A stretch of DNA of 64,000 nucleotides from Phormidesmis priestleyi BC1401 (GTDB taxonomy: Bacteria > Cyanobacteriota > Cyanobacteriia > Leptolyngbyales > Leptolyngbyaceae), in the NCBI RefSeq assembly GCF_001650195.1, contig NZ_LXYR01000004.1:62001-126000 (forward strand). The letters are read 5' to 3'. The number at the start of each line of letters is the position of its first letter. The first letter of the stretch is position 1. The position numbers were made by a program, and so were the translations under genes. The notes beneath the pieces are model-generated. The model was not told where the DNA came from and searched no databases. It saw only the letters and a list, made by a program, of their open reading frames with translations. Of this stretch, positions 13,391-22,378 are shown one piece after another.

Positions 13391-15817
13391 TTAAGCACGA
13401 GGCGTAGAAAACGCCCGACGCAGCAGAAGCGAATTTGTAACCACGCTGACAGAGCTAAAAGCCATTAAAGCACCTGCGGCGGCAGGACTGAGCAAAATTC
13501 CAAATTTTGGCAGCAGGATGCCTGCGGCGATCGGGATGCCCAGCAAATTATAGGCAAATGCCCAAAACAAGTTTTGCCGAATTTTGCCAAAAGTGGCGCG
13601 GCTAAGGGATAAAGCTTCGACCACATCGGTAAGACGATCGCGCATTAAAACAATGCCTGCCGTTTCAACCGCGACATCGGTTCCTGACTTGAGAGCAATT
13701 CCCACATCGGCTTGAGCCAGCGCAGGCGCGTCGTTAATGCCGTCTCCCACCATTGCGACAAGAGTTCCCGGCTCGGCTTGCAGCGTGCGAATCACCGAGG
13801 CTTTCTGCTCTGGGCGGACTTCAGACAAGACATTTTCTGATGGGATGTTGAGCGTTTTTGCAACGGTTTGGGCAGTTTCGCGACGATCGCCCGTCAGCAT
13901 AATGACTCGCAGACCCATTTTCTGTAGTGAGTCAACGGTTTCTTGGGCATCCGATCGCACCGCATCTGTAGCGGCAATGAGACCCACCAAGGTATTAGCA
14001 ACTGATACATACACAACCGTTTTGCTGGCTTGTGCTAACGTTTGCGCCTGTGCCTGGGTTGTCTCACTCACCACCACTGCATTTTGCTCCATCCAGGTCA
14101 GGGTTCCGAGTAGAACAGATTGCGGCTCTGAGTGCAGCGAAACTGTTGCAGACACTCCAAGCCCTGGCTCTGTGTAGAAGTCTTGAGCGGGAAGAAGTGA
14201 AAGTTCTTGCTGACTGGCAGCGCGAACGATCGCATCTGCAAGGGGGTGACGCGTTCCACTTTCAACCGTTGCGGCGATTTGCAACAGATTAAATTCTTCC
14301 TGATCAAACGATTTGAAAGAAATGCAGTCTGTGACGATTGGGCATCCAGCGGTGAGCGTCCCCGTTTTGTCAAACACGATCGTCGTCAAAGCGTGCACTC
14401 GCTCTAACACGTCGCCCCCTCGAATCAATAATCCTCGCTCAGCACCGATGCCCGACCCGACCAAAATTGCGGTTGGGGTGGCGAGTCCAAGCGCACAAGG
14501 GCAGGCAATCACCAGAACGGCGATCGCGAGTTTGAGACTCAGCAATAACGGAGACGGGTGAATCGTGACAGCAGACGGATCAAGGTGGTGCATAGCGTGT
14601 TCGCTGCCCAGCGCTTGACCTGCAAGCAAAACCTGTGACCAAACGTGAGTGCCGATGAAATACCAGAACAGAAAGGTGAGTGTGGCGATCGTCATCACGC
14701 CATAGGTAAAATAACCCGCGATCGTGTCCGCTAATTTCTGAATCGGGGCTTTGCGCGCCTGGGCATCTTCGACCAGATTGATGATTCGTGCCAGGGTGGT
14801 GTCTTTGCCGATGTGATTAGCTCGGATCGCGATCGCGCCCGACTGATTGAGCGTTCCGGCTGAGACGCGATCGCCCGGCTGCTTTTGCACTGGGACAGGT
14901 TCACCCGTCAGCATCGATTCGTTGATCGTGGTCTGCCCAGCGACGACTTCGCCATCGACGGGAATCTTCTCACTCGGTAGCACTTGCAGCCACTCACCGA
15001 CGCGAATCCGATCGACCGCGATCTCAGTTGAGAGATGAGGAATAAAAGACGAAGGATTAAGAGGATCTTGTTCGTTCTTCTTGACCAATCGGGCAGTCTG
15101 GGGCTGAAGTGCCAAAAGCGCCTGAAGAGACGACGCCGCCCGACTTCTTGCCCGTTGCTCTAACGTGCGACCGAGGAGGATGAAGCCAACTAACATCACA
15201 GGTTCGTCAAAAAAGCACTCCCAGCCGAGTTGGGGAAACAGAAGCGCAATCAAACTAGCGGCAAACGCGGTAACGGTGCCCAGCCCGACGAGCGTATTCA
15301 TGTTGGGAGCATTGCGGCGCAAGCCTTGCCAGCCGTCAATAATCATCGATCGTCCCGGCACTGCCAGCGCGATCGCGGCTAACCCGCAGTGCAGCCAAAT
15401 GTTGCTGAGTCCGAATATGGTGATGCCTGCGAGTTGATTGAGGTGCCCGATCGTCGAGATCGCTAGGAGAAGAATCGCGATCGTCAGCCTGCGAGTCTGC
15501 TGTTGGGTGTCTAACCGTCGCCGTTCTGCGAGATCGATCAAGCCTGCAGATTCTGGAGCGCCTTCGGGATAGCGAGGCTGACTCGGAAATCCGGCTTCGG
15601 TCAATTTTTCGGCTAAGTGTGCGGGATCGATGACTGACTCGCACTCAACGGTTGCTAACTCTGTAACGAGATTCACCGTGGCAGAAATCACCCCCGGCTC
15701 TTGAGTGAGGGCATTCTCAACGGTTTTGACACAGCCTGCACACTTCATGCCGCTTACATCGATCGTGATGGTGTCTGAAATGGGGGCGTTGATTTCTGTT
15801 TTTGACGTGGTTTGCAT
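13391..15817 (-). CDS. Copper-translocating P1B-type ATPase
   Basis: 808 residues. N-terminal heavy-metal-associated domain with the copper-binding GMKCAGC motif (Cys26, Cys29), eight expected membrane helices, the TGEP actuator motif (304-307), transmembrane CPC (Cys439-Pro-Cys441), phosphorylated Asp483 in DKTGT, the P1B signature HP in GTRHPLADAIV, and GDGINDAPA near the C-terminus. CPC with this domain set indicates Cu(I) transport. In cyanobacteria such pumps are CtaA (plasma membrane import) or PacS (thylakoid); sequence alone does not say which. The external loop before the CPC helix is rich in His (LGSEHAMHHLDPSAVTIHP), which may help metal capture. An inverted repeat lies directly upstream of the ATG. 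Confidence 0.92.
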   Translation of the reverse strand: MQTTSKTEINAPISDTITIDVSGMKCAGCVKTVENALTQEPGVISATVNLVTELATVECESVIDPAHLAEKLTEAGFPSQPRYPEGAPESAGLIDLAERRRLDTQQQTRRLTIAILLLAISTIGHLNQLAGITIFGLSNIWLHCGLAAIALAVPGRSMIIDGWQGLRRNAPNMNTLVGLGTVTAFAASLIALLFPQLGWECFFDEPVMLVGFILLGRTLEQRARSRAASSLQALLALQPQTARLVKKNEQDPLNPSSFIPHLSTEIAVDRIRVGEWLQVLPSEKIPVDGEVVAGQTTINESMLTGEPVPVQKQPGDRVSAGTLNQSGAIAIRANHIGKDTTLARIINLVEDAQARKAPIQKLADTIAGYFTYGVMTIATLTFLFWYFIGTHVWSQVLLAGQALGSEHAMHHLDPSAVTIHPSPLLLSLKLAIAVLVIACPCALGLATPTAILVGSGIGAERGLLIRGGDVLERVHALTTIVFDKTGTLTAGCPIVTDCISFKSFDQEEFNLLQIAATVESGTRHPLADAIVRAASQQELSLLPAQDFYTEPGLGVSATVSLHSEPQSVLLGTLTWMEQNAVVVSETTQAQAQTLAQASKTVVYVSVANTLVGLIAATDAVRSDAQETVDSLQKMGLRVIMLTGDRRETAQTVAKTLNIPSENVLSEVRPEQKASVIRTLQAEPGTLVAMVGDGINDAPALAQADVGIALKSGTDVAVETAGIVLMRDRLTDVVEALSLSRATFGKIRQNLFWAFAYNLLGIPIAAGILLPKFGILLSPAAAGALMAFSSVSVVTNSLLLRRAFSTPRA

Positions 15818-18186: not shown

Positions 18187-18201
18187 GGAGGATTCCCTTT
18201 G
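18187..18201 (+). promoter_or_regulatory. Shine-Dalgarno site that fixes a TTG start
   Basis: GGAGG at 18187-18191 stands 7 bases before TTG 18199. The nearby ATG at 18185 is out of frame and stops after five codons, so the TTG is the best supported start for the phosphatase. Confidence 0.7.
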
Positions 18202-19548
18202 ACTACTCGCGTCATCATCGTCCGTCACGGCGAGAGCAGCTACAACGTTGAGCGGAAAGTGCAGGGACATTGCGATCTGTCGCGGTTGACTGCTAAAGGG
18301 GAATCGATGGCGGTGCAGGTTGCCGCTGCCCTCAAAGGAATTTCTCTTGATGCGGCTTACAGCAGCCCGTTAATGCGGGCAAAGCGCACGGCGGAGTTAA
18401 TCCTGTCCAATTCCGATCGCGCTCCTCACCTGCAAACCAGCGAAGACTTGAGAGAAATTAATCTACCGCTCTGGGAAGGGTTGCTGTTTGATGAAGTCGA
18501 GGAGAAATATCCTGATGAGTATGACGCGTGGAGAACGCAGCCTCATTTGCTGAAGATGAGCCTGTCAGACGAAAACGGCAGCGTCGATTTTCTCCCAGTT
18601 CCAGCGATTTATGAGCAAGCGCGTCAATTTTGGCAAACTACTCTGCCCAACCATGTGGGACAAACGATTTTGATCGTGGCTCATAGCGGCATTAATCGGG
18701 CGTTGATCAACACGGCGATCGGACTTCAGCCCGAAGATTATCAGCGCTTCCATATCTCAAACTGCGGCATCAGCATTCTCAATTTTTCGGGTGAATATGG
18801 GCAACCCGTGCAGATTGAGTCATTGAATATCACGTCTCATTTGGGCGAAATGTTGCCCCGTCACAAGTCAAAAAGTCAGGGACTCCGGCTGCTGTTGGTG
18901 CGACACGGTGAAACCGAGTGGAATCGGCAAGGACGCTTTCAGGGACAGATAGATGTTCCGCTTAACGAAAATGGGCGATCGCAAGCCGCTCAAGCGTGTG
19001 AATTTCTCAAATCGGTGCGAATTGATCAGGTGATCAGTAGCTCAATGCTGCGTCCCAAAGAAACCGCAGAGATTATTCTTCAACATCATCCTCACCTTCA
19101 GCTTGACCTGCGAGACGACCTGCGAGAAATCAGTCACGGCTTATGGGAAGGCAAGCTAGAAGCCGAAATCGAGCAATCCTATCCCGGTTTGCTGCATCAG
19201 TGGCAGCAGCACCCCGAAACCGTGCAAATGCCCGAAGGCGAAAATCTGCAAGGCGTATGGAATCGGGCGATCGCTGCATGGCAAGACATCATCAACGCAG
19301 CAGCAACGCGTCCGGCTGACGAACCTTTCACGATTTTGGTCGTCGCTCACGATGCCATCAACAAAGCGATTCTCTGTCACGTCGCGGGTTTGGGTGCCGA
19401 GTCTTTCTGGAACTTTAAGCAAGGTAACGGAGCCGTCAGCGTGATCGACTACCCGCACGGAATCGAGGCGGCTCCCCTGATGCAAGCAATGAACATCACG
19501 ACGCACTTGGGAGGCGTTTTAGACAAGACCGCAGCCGGGGCACTTTAG
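18199..19548 (+). CDS. Double-domain histidine phosphatase (phosphoglycerate mutase-like)
   Basis: 449 residues with two complete histidine-phosphatase domains. The first begins with VRHGESSYN (His near residue 10) and the second with LVRHGETEWN (His near 236); each has the later catalytic His (IVAHSGINRALI and VVAHDAINKAIL) and the LWEG substrate-pocket block. Members of this superfamily remove phosphate from sugars, glycerates or other small substrates; the two-domain form is common in cyanobacteria and often annotated as phosphoglycerate mutase, without proof. Start is TTG with a strong GGAGG. The dihydroorotase-like gene begins 10 bases after its stop, so the two are probably one operon. 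Confidence 0.88.
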   Translation: MTTRVIIVRHGESSYNVERKVQGHCDLSRLTAKGESMAVQVAAALKGISLDAAYSSPLMRAKRTAELILSNSDRAPHLQTSEDLREINLPLWEGLLFDEVEEKYPDEYDAWRTQPHLLKMSLSDENGSVDFLPVPAIYEQARQFWQTTLPNHVGQTILIVAHSGINRALINTAIGLQPEDYQRFHISNCGISILNFSGEYGQPVQIESLNITSHLGEMLPRHKSKSQGLRLLLVRHGETEWNRQGRFQGQIDVPLNENGRSQAAQACEFLKSVRIDQVISSSMLRPKETAEIILQHHPHLQLDLRDDLREISHGLWEGKLEAEIEQSYPGLLHQWQQHPETVQMPEGENLQGVWNRAIAAWQDIINAAATRPADEPFTILVVAHDAINKAILCHVAGLGAESFWNFKQGNGAVSVIDYPHGIEAAPLMQAMNITTHLGGVLDKTAAGAL

Positions 19549-19557
19549 AAAAGTTTT

Positions 19558-20826
19558 ATGACGATCGAACTGCTCCAACAAGTCCGTCTGCTCGATCCGA
19601 TCGCGATGGTCGATCAAGTGGTCGATGTGGTGATCGCAGACGGCGTGATTCTGGCGATCGCGTCCCAAATCGGCGACATTCAGATTGGGTCTCAAACTGG
19701 CGAGAGTCCACCTGATGTCCAGATTTATGATTCTCCAGGCTTAGTGTTGGGATCAGGACTGGTTGACCTTTACAGCCATTCTGGAGAACCGGGATTTGAA
19801 GAACGGGAAACTTTAGAATCGCTCAGTCAAGCCGCGATCGCGGGAGGCTTCACTCGGTTGAATATTCTCCCGGATACAGAACCTGCGATCGACAATCCTG
19901 CTGCCGTCACCTGGTTCAGGCAAAACTCAAAACTCTCTTGTTGGGGGGCTTTAACGCTCCATGCCAACGGTCAACATATGACCGAACTGTCAGAACTGGC
20001 ACAATCAGGAGTCGTCGGGTTTGCAGACGGACAGCCGATCGCTAATCTCGTTCTGATAAGACGATTGTTGGAATATCTTCAGCCGCTAAACAAACCGATT
20101 GCGCTGTGGGCGTGTGACCGATCGTTGGTCGGTAATGGCGTGATTCGTGAAGGCGTTGAGTCGGTGCGGTTTGGCTTGCCTGGAGATCCCGCCATGTCAG
20201 AAACGACGGCGCTATCGGCTCTATTAGAATGCGTCGAAGAAATCGGAACCCCCATTCATCTGATGCGAATTTCGACCGCGCGGAGTGTGGAACTGATTCG
20301 AGCCGCGAAAGCACGAGGGTTGCCAATTACTGCCAGCGTGACGTGGATGCATTTGTTGCTCAACACAAAAGCGATCGAGCACTACGATCCCAATCTGAGA
20401 CTAGAGCCACCGCTAGGAAATCAAAGCGATCAAGTTGCCCTCTTGCAAGCCGTTCGAGAAGGGGTGATCGACGCGATCGCCATCGATCACTCGCCCTACA
20501 CCTACGAAGAAAAAACCGTTGCCTTCTCAGAAGCGCCCCCTGGAGCAATCGGGCTAGAACTCGCACTCCCCTTGCTGTGGCAGACGCTGGTAGAGACTCA
20601 ACAGTGGTCAGCTTTAGAACTATGGCGCAGTCTTAGCGTCCGTCCCGCTGCTTGTTTGGGGCAAACGATGAGTGCGATCGCTGTCAATCAGCCTGCGGAA
20701 CTGGTGTTATTTGATCCGCAATTAGAGTGGACGGTGAATCGTGAGAGTTTAAAGTCTCGATCGCTCAACACCCCTTGGCTAGGCAAACCGTTAATTGGGA
20801 GAGTGATTCGTACTTGGTGTCCCTAA
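19558..20826 (+). CDS. pyrC: Dihydroorotase (class I fold, several metal ligands replaced)
   Basis: 422 residues, amidohydrolase fold. Dihydroorotase closes carbamoyl-aspartate to dihydroorotate in pyrimidine synthesis. Family blocks are clear: GLVDLYSHSGEPGFEERETL, GGFTRLNILPDTEPAIDNP, STARSVELIRAAKARGLP, IDAIAIDHSPYTYEEK and GLELALPLL. However, the metal-binding HxH is YSH, the later His of HVST is Arg (MRIST), and the TPHH position reads TWMH; Asp of the IDH block is kept. Three of five usual ligands are therefore missing, so I infer a weakly active or non-catalytic paralogue that may act structurally, as pseudo-dihydroorotases do with aspartate carbamoyltransferase. It follows the phosphatase gene by 9 bases and converges on lepB. 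A decayed copy with an intact HVH motif lies at 21640. Confidence 0.85.
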   Translation: MTIELLQQVRLLDPIAMVDQVVDVVIADGVILAIASQIGDIQIGSQTGESPPDVQIYDSPGLVLGSGLVDLYSHSGEPGFEERETLESLSQAAIAGGFTRLNILPDTEPAIDNPAAVTWFRQNSKLSCWGALTLHANGQHMTELSELAQSGVVGFADGQPIANLVLIRRLLEYLQPLNKPIALWACDRSLVGNGVIREGVESVRFGLPGDPAMSETTALSALLECVEEIGTPIHLMRISTARSVELIRAAKARGLPITASVTWMHLLLNTKAIEHYDPNLRLEPPLGNQSDQVALLQAVREGVIDAIAIDHSPYTYEEKTVAFSEAPPGAIGLELALPLLWQTLVETQQWSALELWRSLSVRPAACLGQTMSAIAVNQPAELVLFDPQLEWTVNRESLKSRSLNTPWLGKPLIGRVIRTWCP

Positions 20827-20841
20827 ACTGGAACCTAACGT

Positions 20842-21441
20842 CTACTGCTGCGGCTTATAGTTCGGTTCTGGTGTGATCTCTCCGACTCGATTAGGAGGCC
20901 AAAACCGCACAACCGCGCGACCGATAATCTTCTCGCGGGGGACAAAGCCCCAATAGTGACTGTCGTAGCTATTATTGCGATTGTCTCCCAGCACTAGATA
21001 AGAACCCGGAGGAACCGTCTGCGGACCCCATTGATATTGCGGATCTTCTTCAATGTAGTTTTCTCGCAGAGCCTGGTCATTGACAAAAACGCGACCGCCT
21101 TTGACTTCTACTTTGTCACCCGGCAGCCCAATCACCCGTTTGATAAACGCATCGTGGAAATTTTGCTTTTCTAGCGTGCTGGTAGGCGAAAACACCACGA
21201 TGTCGCCCCGTTGAGGTGTGCTAAACCACCGATAGCTCAGTTTGTCAACAATTAAGCGATCGTTGATTTGCAGAGTCGGCAACATTGAGCCAGAAGGAAT
21301 ATAGCGAGCTTCTGCCACAAACTGACGAATACCGATCGCCAAAAGGGCGCTCAACCCAATGGTCTTAAGTCCTTCAAGCCAGGGATTTTCATCTTTTGGT
21401 TGAGGTTTGTCGTTGGGTGCCGGGTTTTCTACGCGAGTCAT
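20842..21441 (-). CDS. lepB: Signal peptidase I
   Basis: 199 residues; membrane serine/lysine protease that removes signal peptides from exported proteins. One N-terminal membrane segment (about 27-44) follows a Pro/Lys-rich cytoplasmic start. Catalytic Ser52 lies in SGSMLPT, and Lys101 in KRVIGLPGD; box E is [14 protein letters not shown]. Length is normal for the short single-anchor type. It converges on the dihydroorotase gene with 15 bases between stops and is transcribed away from the pseudogene. Cyanobacteria often carry two lepB copies; only one is in this window. Confidence 0.95.
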
Positions 21442-21639
21442 AGGGTTTTAAGTGCAAAGTCAGAACAGGGGTTAGGGCACATCTGCCCATCTAGTCTATT
21501 CAATAAAAGTCAGATCGAACCAAGTGAGTTGTGATGATATTAAAGTTTACAGGGCATTTCTACTTTCTACTATCCACCCACAATCTAGACTCTTCCAGTT
21601 CCCTCAAAATCAGTATTTCTTGTGATGGATTCTTCCTCT

Positions 21640-21920
21640 CTATCTGATTCAAAACGCTCAAATCTTGCTGCCAAACGGCGAATTTATCTTGGGAAAGGTG
21701 CAGATTCAAGAAGGTAAAATCGTTGGGGTTGGGACAGGTCTTTTGTCGATCGACAACTCAGACTATCAGAATAGACGCGACCGGATTGACTTTGTTGCCA
21801 GGAGCGATCGACCCGCAAGTTCATGTTCGAGAACCAGGGCTGGAGTGTAAGGAAGACCTACTTTACGGCGAGTTGTGCCTGTGCGCGAGGCGGCGTGACT
21901 TCGTTTTTAGAGATGCCTAA
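21640..21920 (+). pseudogene. Remnant of a second dihydroorotase (frameshifted, 3' deleted)
   Basis: Three reading frames together spell the start of a class I dihydroorotase. Frame 1 gives [14 protein letters not shown] then [14 protein letters not shown]; frame 2 continues as [20 protein letters not shown] then [11 protein letters not shown]; frame 3 continues as [19 protein letters not shown]. The second shift is explained by one extra base in GACCTACTTTACG (near 21860). The HVHxREPG metal motif that the intact paralogue lacks is present here. Homology stops after FLEMP, next to the tsaE stop codon, so about three quarters of the gene is gone. No credible start remains in frame. This is a clear decay product and cannot make an enzyme. 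Confidence 0.85.
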
Positions 21921-22378
21921 AGTACAAAGATGACCGACTCTAGGGCAAAGTCACCCGCAGAACTGAGGGTGACTTGACGACCGGAATCACGATCGTACTC
22001 CAGTCGAATTTCTAAATAGTTCTGTGGTTTGTAAGACAGCCGCTCTGCCCACTCGATCGCGACGATTCCGAGTTCGACCTCGACTCCTTCCCAGTAAATT
22101 TCTGGATAGAGACTGGCGGTTTCAGATAAGTTGAGACGATAAAGATCGAAGTGATAAAGCGGGATGCGTCCGCCTAAATATTCGTTGATCAGCGTGAAGG
22201 TCGGACTCTCGATCGAGTCCTGAATGCCCAATCCATCACCCATTCCCTGCACGAGGGTGGTCTTCCCACTGCCCAAGTCACCTTCGAGCAACAGCACACT
22301 GCCAGCCGCGAGCGTTTGCCCTAGCTGAATGCCTAACTTGCGAGTTGCCGTTGCAGTGGGAAGACGGAATGACTTCAT
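21917..22378 (-). CDS. tsaE: tRNA threonylcarbamoyladenosine biosynthesis ATPase TsaE
   Basis: 153 residues. ATPase of the TsaBDE complex that puts the t6A modification on position 37 of ANN-decoding tRNAs. The Walker A motif is [10 protein letters not shown] (about 33-42); [11 protein letters not shown] and [10 protein letters not shown] are conserved family blocks, and IEWAERL follows. The start overlaps the stop of the upstream 808-residue gene by 4 bases, so they are translated together. The final residues and stop lie at the junction with the dihydroorotase remnant, and the C-terminus may have changed when that DNA was deleted. The t6A partner Sua5 is at 32028. Confidence 0.93.

Follow-up and report, generated by a model that had tools for sequence, protein, structure and literature searches.

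What enzyme makes dihydroorotate in a cyanobacterium whose one complete dihydroorotase-like gene at a conserved locus has lost most of its active site, and what is this gene kept for? The question arises from a window of 64,000 nucleotides of Phormidesmis priestleyi BC1401 (contig NZ_LXYR01000004.1, positions 62,001 to 126,000), in which a complete gene of the dihydroorotase type at 19558-20826 is followed, beyond a signal peptidase gene, by the remnant of a second one. The first-pass annotation of this DNA had set an intact paralogue without metal ligands against a pseudogene with canonical ones. We suggest that the complete gene encodes a pseudo-dihydroorotase, a non-catalytic protein that most likely serves as a subunit assembling with and stabilising aspartate transcarbamoylase (ATCase, PyrB), that the dihydroorotase reaction would be carried out by a separate enzyme and that the remnant is a decayed gene of that enzyme's family, PRK07575. 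The probability of this reading is, in our judgement, roughly 60%. No account of a cyanobacterial pseudo-dihydroorotase was found among the open-licence papers listed in the searches, which does not show that none is in print.

Loss of the catalytic residues

The gene at 19558-20826 is, as had been reported, an intact open reading frame (ORF), and its 422-residue product matches the NCBIfam family PRK07369 (NF005614) over residues 2-421 with 651 bits against a curated cut-off of 456. An AlphaFold2 model of the protein has a mean predicted local distance difference test score (pLDDT) of 93.2, and its top fold matches are with the Aquifex dihydroorotase in complex with ATCase, 3d6n (Foldseek E 6.5e-43; Z 52.2 and root-mean-square deviation 2.4 over 407 residues for 3d6n_A) and 4bjh (E 3.3e-42; Z also 52.2), tied in Z with 2z00 (51.9) and 4yiw (51.4). 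The fold match of the predicted structure is evidence of homology and says nothing on function. In an alignment with 3d6n, from which the residue numbers H61, H63, R65, N95, D153, H180, H232, D305 and H309 are taken, H61 is replaced by Tyr72, R65 by Gly76, N95 by Asp106, H180 by Trp184, H232 by Arg237 and H309 by Tyr314, and H63 (His74), D153 (Asp156) and D305 (Asp310) are retained. The motifs YSH, MRIST and TWMH, noted earlier in place of the ligand motifs, are indeed present (LYSH, LMRIST and SVTWMHLLL). A catalytic type I dihydroorotase has the alpha-site ligands H61, H63 and D153 and the substrate arginine R65; H63 and D153 are left here.

Loss of function had been argued from the number of missing ligands. 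The loss of catalysis itself is well supported, but it has to be based on other residues. According to a passage in PMC3880350, the Aquifex dihydroorotase is still active with H180A and H232A combined, and because this beta-site pair is dispensable there, the telling losses are those of H61 and R65. They strongly suggest that the protein no longer catalyses the dihydroorotase reaction.

The losses belong to the entire PRK07369 family. Among 138 distinct members, counted after merging genes fetched twice with different ends, the H61 position holds Tyr in 137 and His in one, and the R65 position Gly, Ser or Ala in all. H180 is gone in every member, H232 has become Arg in 134, Gly in three and Lys in one, with His in none, and the H309 position has Tyr in 129 members and His in three. 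The sole member with His at H61 (L151, from genome G129) reads LHSHSGEPG; it is still without R65 and has Arg at H232. By comparison, homologues in five genomes from other classes of the phylum have all nine residues intact. The alignment with 3d6n comprises 65 PRK07369 rows, with two loci in it twice, and ends N-terminal of the tblastn match were trimmed to 12 residues; the short PRK07575 pieces L146, L147, L150 and L060, the window itself (L009 and L011), L106-L108, L110-L113 and L153 (either repeats or the G060 gene, which is in three pieces) and L074 (a repeat of L144) were left out. Many columns are invariant within PRK07369. The ratio of nonsynonymous to synonymous substitution rates (dN/dS) is 0.08-0.32 over 15 pairs, with dS near or above 1 in the most distant pairs and those values therefore unsure; it lies above that of PRK07575, gpm and lepB in every comparison except one (gpm, L281-L295). 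The gene is kept by selection.

Probable separate enzyme for the dihydroorotase reaction

PRK07369, PRK07575 and type II PyrC were all sought in one set of 386 genomes from the phylum. The class of the window genome was sampled with 130 genomes outside a small-genome family (f19) and 59 genomes within it; f19 probably corresponds to the marine picocyanobacteria, its genus g33 to Prochlorococcus and the other classes to the non-photosynthetic ones. Outside f19, PRK07369 was above its cut-off in 129 of the 130 genomes, and the 130th (G060) has the gene in three frame pieces. PRK07575 was above cut-off in 106 genomes and, with three copies broken (G179, G191 and G245), intact in 103, and type II PyrC in 24, G191 and G245 among them. 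Intact PRK07575 and type II PyrC occur together in 0 of the 130 genomes: the two replace one another, and PRK07369 persists with either. Since it persists whichever catalytic enzyme is present, its partner is probably neither of them. A separate intact gene of a catalytic type exists in 127 of the 130 genomes. Broken PRK07575 copies are still held by the type II genomes G191 and G245, and seemingly by G056 as well.

The window genome (99.99% complete) has an intact PRK07575 gene on another contig, C21, scoring 781 bits against a cut-off of 529, and the family search gave no match to type II PyrC in this genome. An unlinked PyrC had been offered as an alternative by the first-pass annotation, and in substance this was right. 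The C21 enzyme would perform the dihydroorotase reaction, judging from its family and its intact motifs. In 36 rows of PRK07575 (one locus twice), H61 is replaced by Gln in all, and H63, R65, N95, H180, H232, D305 and H309 are likewise retained in all 36. The family also has a Lys within the stretch GIKIFMGS, near the place of D153, which by analogy may bridge the metals. The second-best NCBIfam match of the C21 gene product (L010) is PRK09060, with 466 bits against a cut-off of 482, and a relationship of PRK07575 to the Zur-linked PyrC2 of Pseudomonas is conceivable.

Remnant and gene order

The remnant matches PRK07575 in three reading frames (21644-21736, from 21750 to about 21860, and from there to 21927), and one piece of 30 amino acids matches the family in hmmscan with E 1.1e-8; on both counts the match is not due to chance. 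About the first 104 of some 440 codons are left and the remainder is gone, in agreement with the frameshifts and the missing 3' part described before. The motif in it was previously read as the canonical HVH. It is in fact QVH, the normal state of PRK07575, so that the contrast drawn between a ligand-less intact paralogue and an HVH pseudogene was misleading: the gene without ligands is a paralogue that has been conserved, and the remnant lies where the catalytic gene is normally found.

That this is the usual site can be seen from the named cyanobacterial loci, which are the best 80 of 206. Among these 80, gpm was found in 61 and lepB was seen in 30, with no lepB match within the stretch examined in the other 50. 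PRK07575 comes after lepB in 25 of the 30 lepB loci (21 intact, 4 broken), and tsaE then follows in 11 of these 25. In five named loci lepB stands without PRK07575, and for three of these the contig stops shortly beyond lepB. The order in the window, gpm - PRK07369 - lepB(-) - PRK07575 - tsaE(-), is also found among the named loci and is taken as ancestral because distant families (L148-L152) share it. Kastovskya (L320) has a fragmentary PRK07575 at the same place, and the core of its PRK07369 protein is identical to that of G056, a genome with type II PyrC. By sequence match and by its place after lepB, the window remnant is a decayed PRK07575 copy at the gene's usual site, and the PRK07575 gene on C21 is a relocated, a duplicated or a re-acquired gene. 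An intact canonical gene elsewhere and a conserved paralogue in relatives had been named as findings that would remove the puzzle. Both were obtained, with the difference that the intact enzyme is of the QVH and not the HVH type, and the puzzle is largely resolved by an old family of pseudo-dihydroorotases, a gene of catalytic type in another part of the genome and a relic of such a gene where it usually lies. The features are collected in Table 1. Apart from them, the window contains a gene for a heavy-metal P-type ATPase with an HMA domain (13391-15817, minus strand).

Table 1. Features of the dihydroorotase-like locus, in window coordinates
Feature	Position	Strand	Basis
PRK07369 pseudo-dihydroorotase, intact, 422 aa	19558..20826	+	NF005614 profile, AlphaFold2 model, fold match
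Tyr72-Ser-His74-Ser-Gly76 (former zinc ligands H61 and H63, substrate Arg R65)	19771..19785	+	3d6n alignment
Arg237 at former H232	20266..20268	+	3d6n alignment, family counts
Asp310 (former D305, retained) to Tyr314 (former H309, gone)	20485..20499	+	family counts
PRK07575 dihydroorotase remnant	21644..21927	+	sequence match in three frames; position after lepB
gpm-like histidine phosphatase with two domains (conserved neighbour on the upstream side)	18199..19548	+	Pfam PF00300, two stretches
Signal peptidase I (lepB)	20842..21441	-	TIGR02227, 164 bits, cut-off 47
tsaE, right-hand neighbour of the remnant	21917..22378	-	TIGR00150, 125 bits, cut-off 60

Proposed role with aspartate transcarbamoylase

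The most likely role for such a protein is suggested by its descent, by precedent and by its persistence. It would be a type I dihydroorotase chain that is still fully folded and no longer catalytic, owing to the loss of H61, R65 and both beta-site His, and it may bind and stabilise PyrB in the manner of the PyrC' or PyrX proteins, with the reaction left to a separate, exchangeable enzyme that would be PRK07575 on C21 here and type II PyrC in other cyanobacteria. Previously, the ATCase of Pseudomonas has been described, in a passage of PMC7053772, as inactive and monomeric without its pseudo-dihydroorotase, and disruption of the pyrB-linked PyrX of S. meliloti led to pyrimidine auxotrophy according to a passage in PMC5929573. 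PyrB was present in all 74 genomes tested.

Homologues outside the phylum were taken from plasmid records: ten were first chosen from 40 listed of 973 records, and Monoglobus, with the highest bits, was added for a second tree. Of the eleven, six are without ligands, all of them proteobacterial, and five are canonical, where Monoglobus is so called from its HFREPG motif only. The ligand-less gene comes shortly after pyrB in Sinorhizobium and Sphingomonas, and the two are one ORF apart in Ruegeria; in Azospirillum, Methylobacterium and Acinetobacter, where the stretch is unannotated, it is preceded at a short distance by a PyrB match. The Sinorhizobium protein belongs to NCBIfam PRK09059, and its locus here (L260), which may or may not be the PyrX locus of PMC5929573, is beside pyrB like the latter. 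In the other classes of the phylum, the canonical homologue directly adjoins pyrB in three of five genomes (G345, G236 and G257, not G230 and G100).

In the first tree, PRK07369 and its f19 relatives form one clade (support 100/99), which forks with the ligand-less PyrC' of proteobacteria (93/87) and then with the canonical relatives of the phylum (95/88). The second tree, from which the long-branched rows of Acinetobacter and f19 were removed and to which Monoglobus was added, gave the same grouping with a support of 84 (Shimodaira-Hasegawa-like approximate likelihood ratio test, SH-aLRT, only). A common inactive ancestor with proteobacterial PyrC' is suggested by these trees and is not secure; the loss of catalysis may have been a single event or a repeated one.

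Divergence and loss in small-genome relatives

Type II PyrC has matches in all 59 f19 genomes, and 43 of these have a PRK07369 match below the cut-off. Thirty of the 43 loci were fetched, and because the gene sits between gpm and lepB in 30 of 30, the matches are regarded as diverged orthologues. In these 30 proteins H63 is gone in 29, and R65, H180, H232 (now Asn) and D305 in all, with H61 retained in all, so the set of losses differs from that of PRK07369. No PRK07369 match was found in the other 16 f19 genomes, and in 15 of them gpm directly adjoins lepB. The 16th, G360 (L363), has a trace of 25 codons of the orthologue between gpm and lepB; its loss is separate from the loss in genus g33.

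A comparison of PyrB columns with gene loss was uninformative. Of 102 columns conserved at >=95% in 52 aligned gene-bearing genomes, nine differ in most of 12 g33 genomes without the gene, with the fast evolution of g33 uncontrolled and with G163, G255 and G338 (without the gene) and G054 outside the alignment; the gene-bearing g33 genome G211 also departs at three of the nine.

Weighing of the alternatives

Several observations speak against a PyrB-binding, non-catalytic protein and have to be weighed together. In the window genome the gene does not adjoin pyrB, which is on contig C25, with the PRK07369 gene on C4; linkage is usual in class A2, but the mechanism does not need it. Adjacency is not special to ligand-less genes either, as all five canonical plasmid-record homologues are beside pyrB as well, and ligand loss therefore probably arose within a family that was ancestrally linked to PyrB. 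The highest-scoring plasmid-record match, among the matches listed, is canonical (Monoglobus, 256 bits), and an alternative topology that joins the cyanobacteria to the canonical relatives of the phylum is unrejected (approximately unbiased test, p-AU 0.212). A quick tree of PyrB groups the cyanobacteria with G230 and G100 and differs from the dihydroorotase tree, and long branches may be the reason why PRK07369 groups with the PyrC' of proteobacteria. All 16 f19 genomes without the gene retain PyrB, so PyrB can do without a pseudo-dihydroorotase at least there, and the PyrB of G360 shows none of the nine column changes found among the 12 others in the alignment. Regarding catalysis, the alpha-site residues are mostly kept in the family (H63 in 118, D153 in 132 and D305 in 135 of the 138 members), and three genomes with neither catalytic type intact leave some room for activity: in G125 and G239, both 99%-complete, the PRK07575 and type II searches recognised no other dihydroorotase, for which assembly gaps would be a simple reason, and in G179 (99%-complete) the only other one has three in-frame stops. 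In the PRK07575 gene of Myxacorys californica (L307) the match covers 395 codons, of which codons 15, 42 and 246 are in-frame stops.

Some of these points would fit a conserved job not involving PyrB, for example the sensing of a ligand or a partnership with some other pyrimidine enzyme, exerted through a rebuilt pocket. The near-fixation of the replacing residues Tyr72, Arg237 and Tyr314 is something that scaffolding need not require, the three members with Gly in place of Arg237 include two that also have Asn for Asp310, and the unlinked pyrB and the loss of the gene beside a retained PyrB point the same way. However, such co-changes are few, and the grouped relatives of known role are ATCase subunits, so we consider this explanation possible but rather unlikely. 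A pocket is also conceivable within an ATCase subunit, the emptied site having been rebuilt and not simply lost: Arg237, standing with Asp156, Asp310 and Tyr72, may replace the charge of the metal and form a ligand pocket that regulates ATCase. This idea is speculative and we regard it as doubtful; apart from the two members just mentioned, the f19 orthologues have changed at both places, which makes few events. If it were true, the f19 relatives without the gene would have an unregulated, self-assembling ATCase.

It is improbable that the protein is a dihydroorotase still active with its metal site altered or absent, perhaps as a back-up that spares zinc. It is true that a PyrC paralogue of Pseudomonas without the conserved zinc ligands was reported active in a passage of PMC2770081, which also counts against the reading preferred here, and the dispensable beta-site His of Aquifex, the retained His74, Asp156 and Asp310 and the state of G125 and G239 would agree with activity. 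But the substrate Arg is gone from every member and H61 from all except one, nearly all genomes have a separate catalytic-type gene, the residues lost by the f19 orthologues, which lie at the same locus, form another set that includes D305, and the proteins of G125 and G239 themselves (L154 and L155) have not restored H61, R65 or H232. Finally, a functionless gene on its way out is hardly credible, as the missing ligands, the fragmented G060 gene and the absences in f19 are outweighed by presence above cut-off in almost every genome outside f19 and by the purifying selection that already contradicts it.

A PyrB-assembling pseudo-dihydroorotase thus seems the most likely explanation. In any case PRK07369, present in most of the cyanobacterial class sampled and named dihydroorotase by NCBIfam, is very probably not one, and reconstructions of the pathway in which it is counted as PyrC would be in error; to name it a probable ATCase subunit would correct the annotation. 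Should it be such a subunit, the cyanobacterial ATCase would be Pseudomonas-like and not stand-alone, and the pseudoenzyme would have persisted through an exchange of the catalytic dihydroorotase between two distinct types. The small-genome relatives that lost the gene and kept PyrB would then be a natural experiment on how ATCase escapes from dependence on its partner.

Comparison with known systems

The closest counterpart is the class A2 PyrC' or PyrX of Pseudomonas and Sinorhizobium, which is likewise a type I homologue with metal and substrate residues gone, accompanied by a separate catalytic dihydroorotase and by PyrB, and which forms the neighbouring group in the trees. The product of 19558-20826 shares the type I chain with lost catalytic residues. 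In contrast, the cyanobacterial gene is not beside pyrB, its family carries Tyr at position 61 and Arg at position 232 and its catalytic companion is PRK07575 or type II PyrC, whereas PyrC' has Arg, Gly or Cys at 61 and Gln, Met, Glu or Leu at 232, with His kept in Azospirillum. The class A1 dihydroorotase-ATCase of Aquifex aeolicus (3d6n) is the best fold match and aligns over nearly the full length, but its chain becomes catalytic on binding to ATCase, and the protein studied here is without H61, R65, H180 and H232. A fungal inactive dihydroorotase-like domain (5nnl) is, according to a passage in PMC7053772, also a pseudo-dihydroorotase inside an ATCase-containing protein; it differs in being a domain of a multifunctional protein, and its sequence match is weak (E 3.3e-5). 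PRK07575, finally, belongs to the same dihydroorotase superfamily and is the usual neighbour of PRK07369 at the locus, but it is only 27.5% identical to the 19558-20826 protein over 389 residues and has retained the catalytic residues, with Gln for H61.

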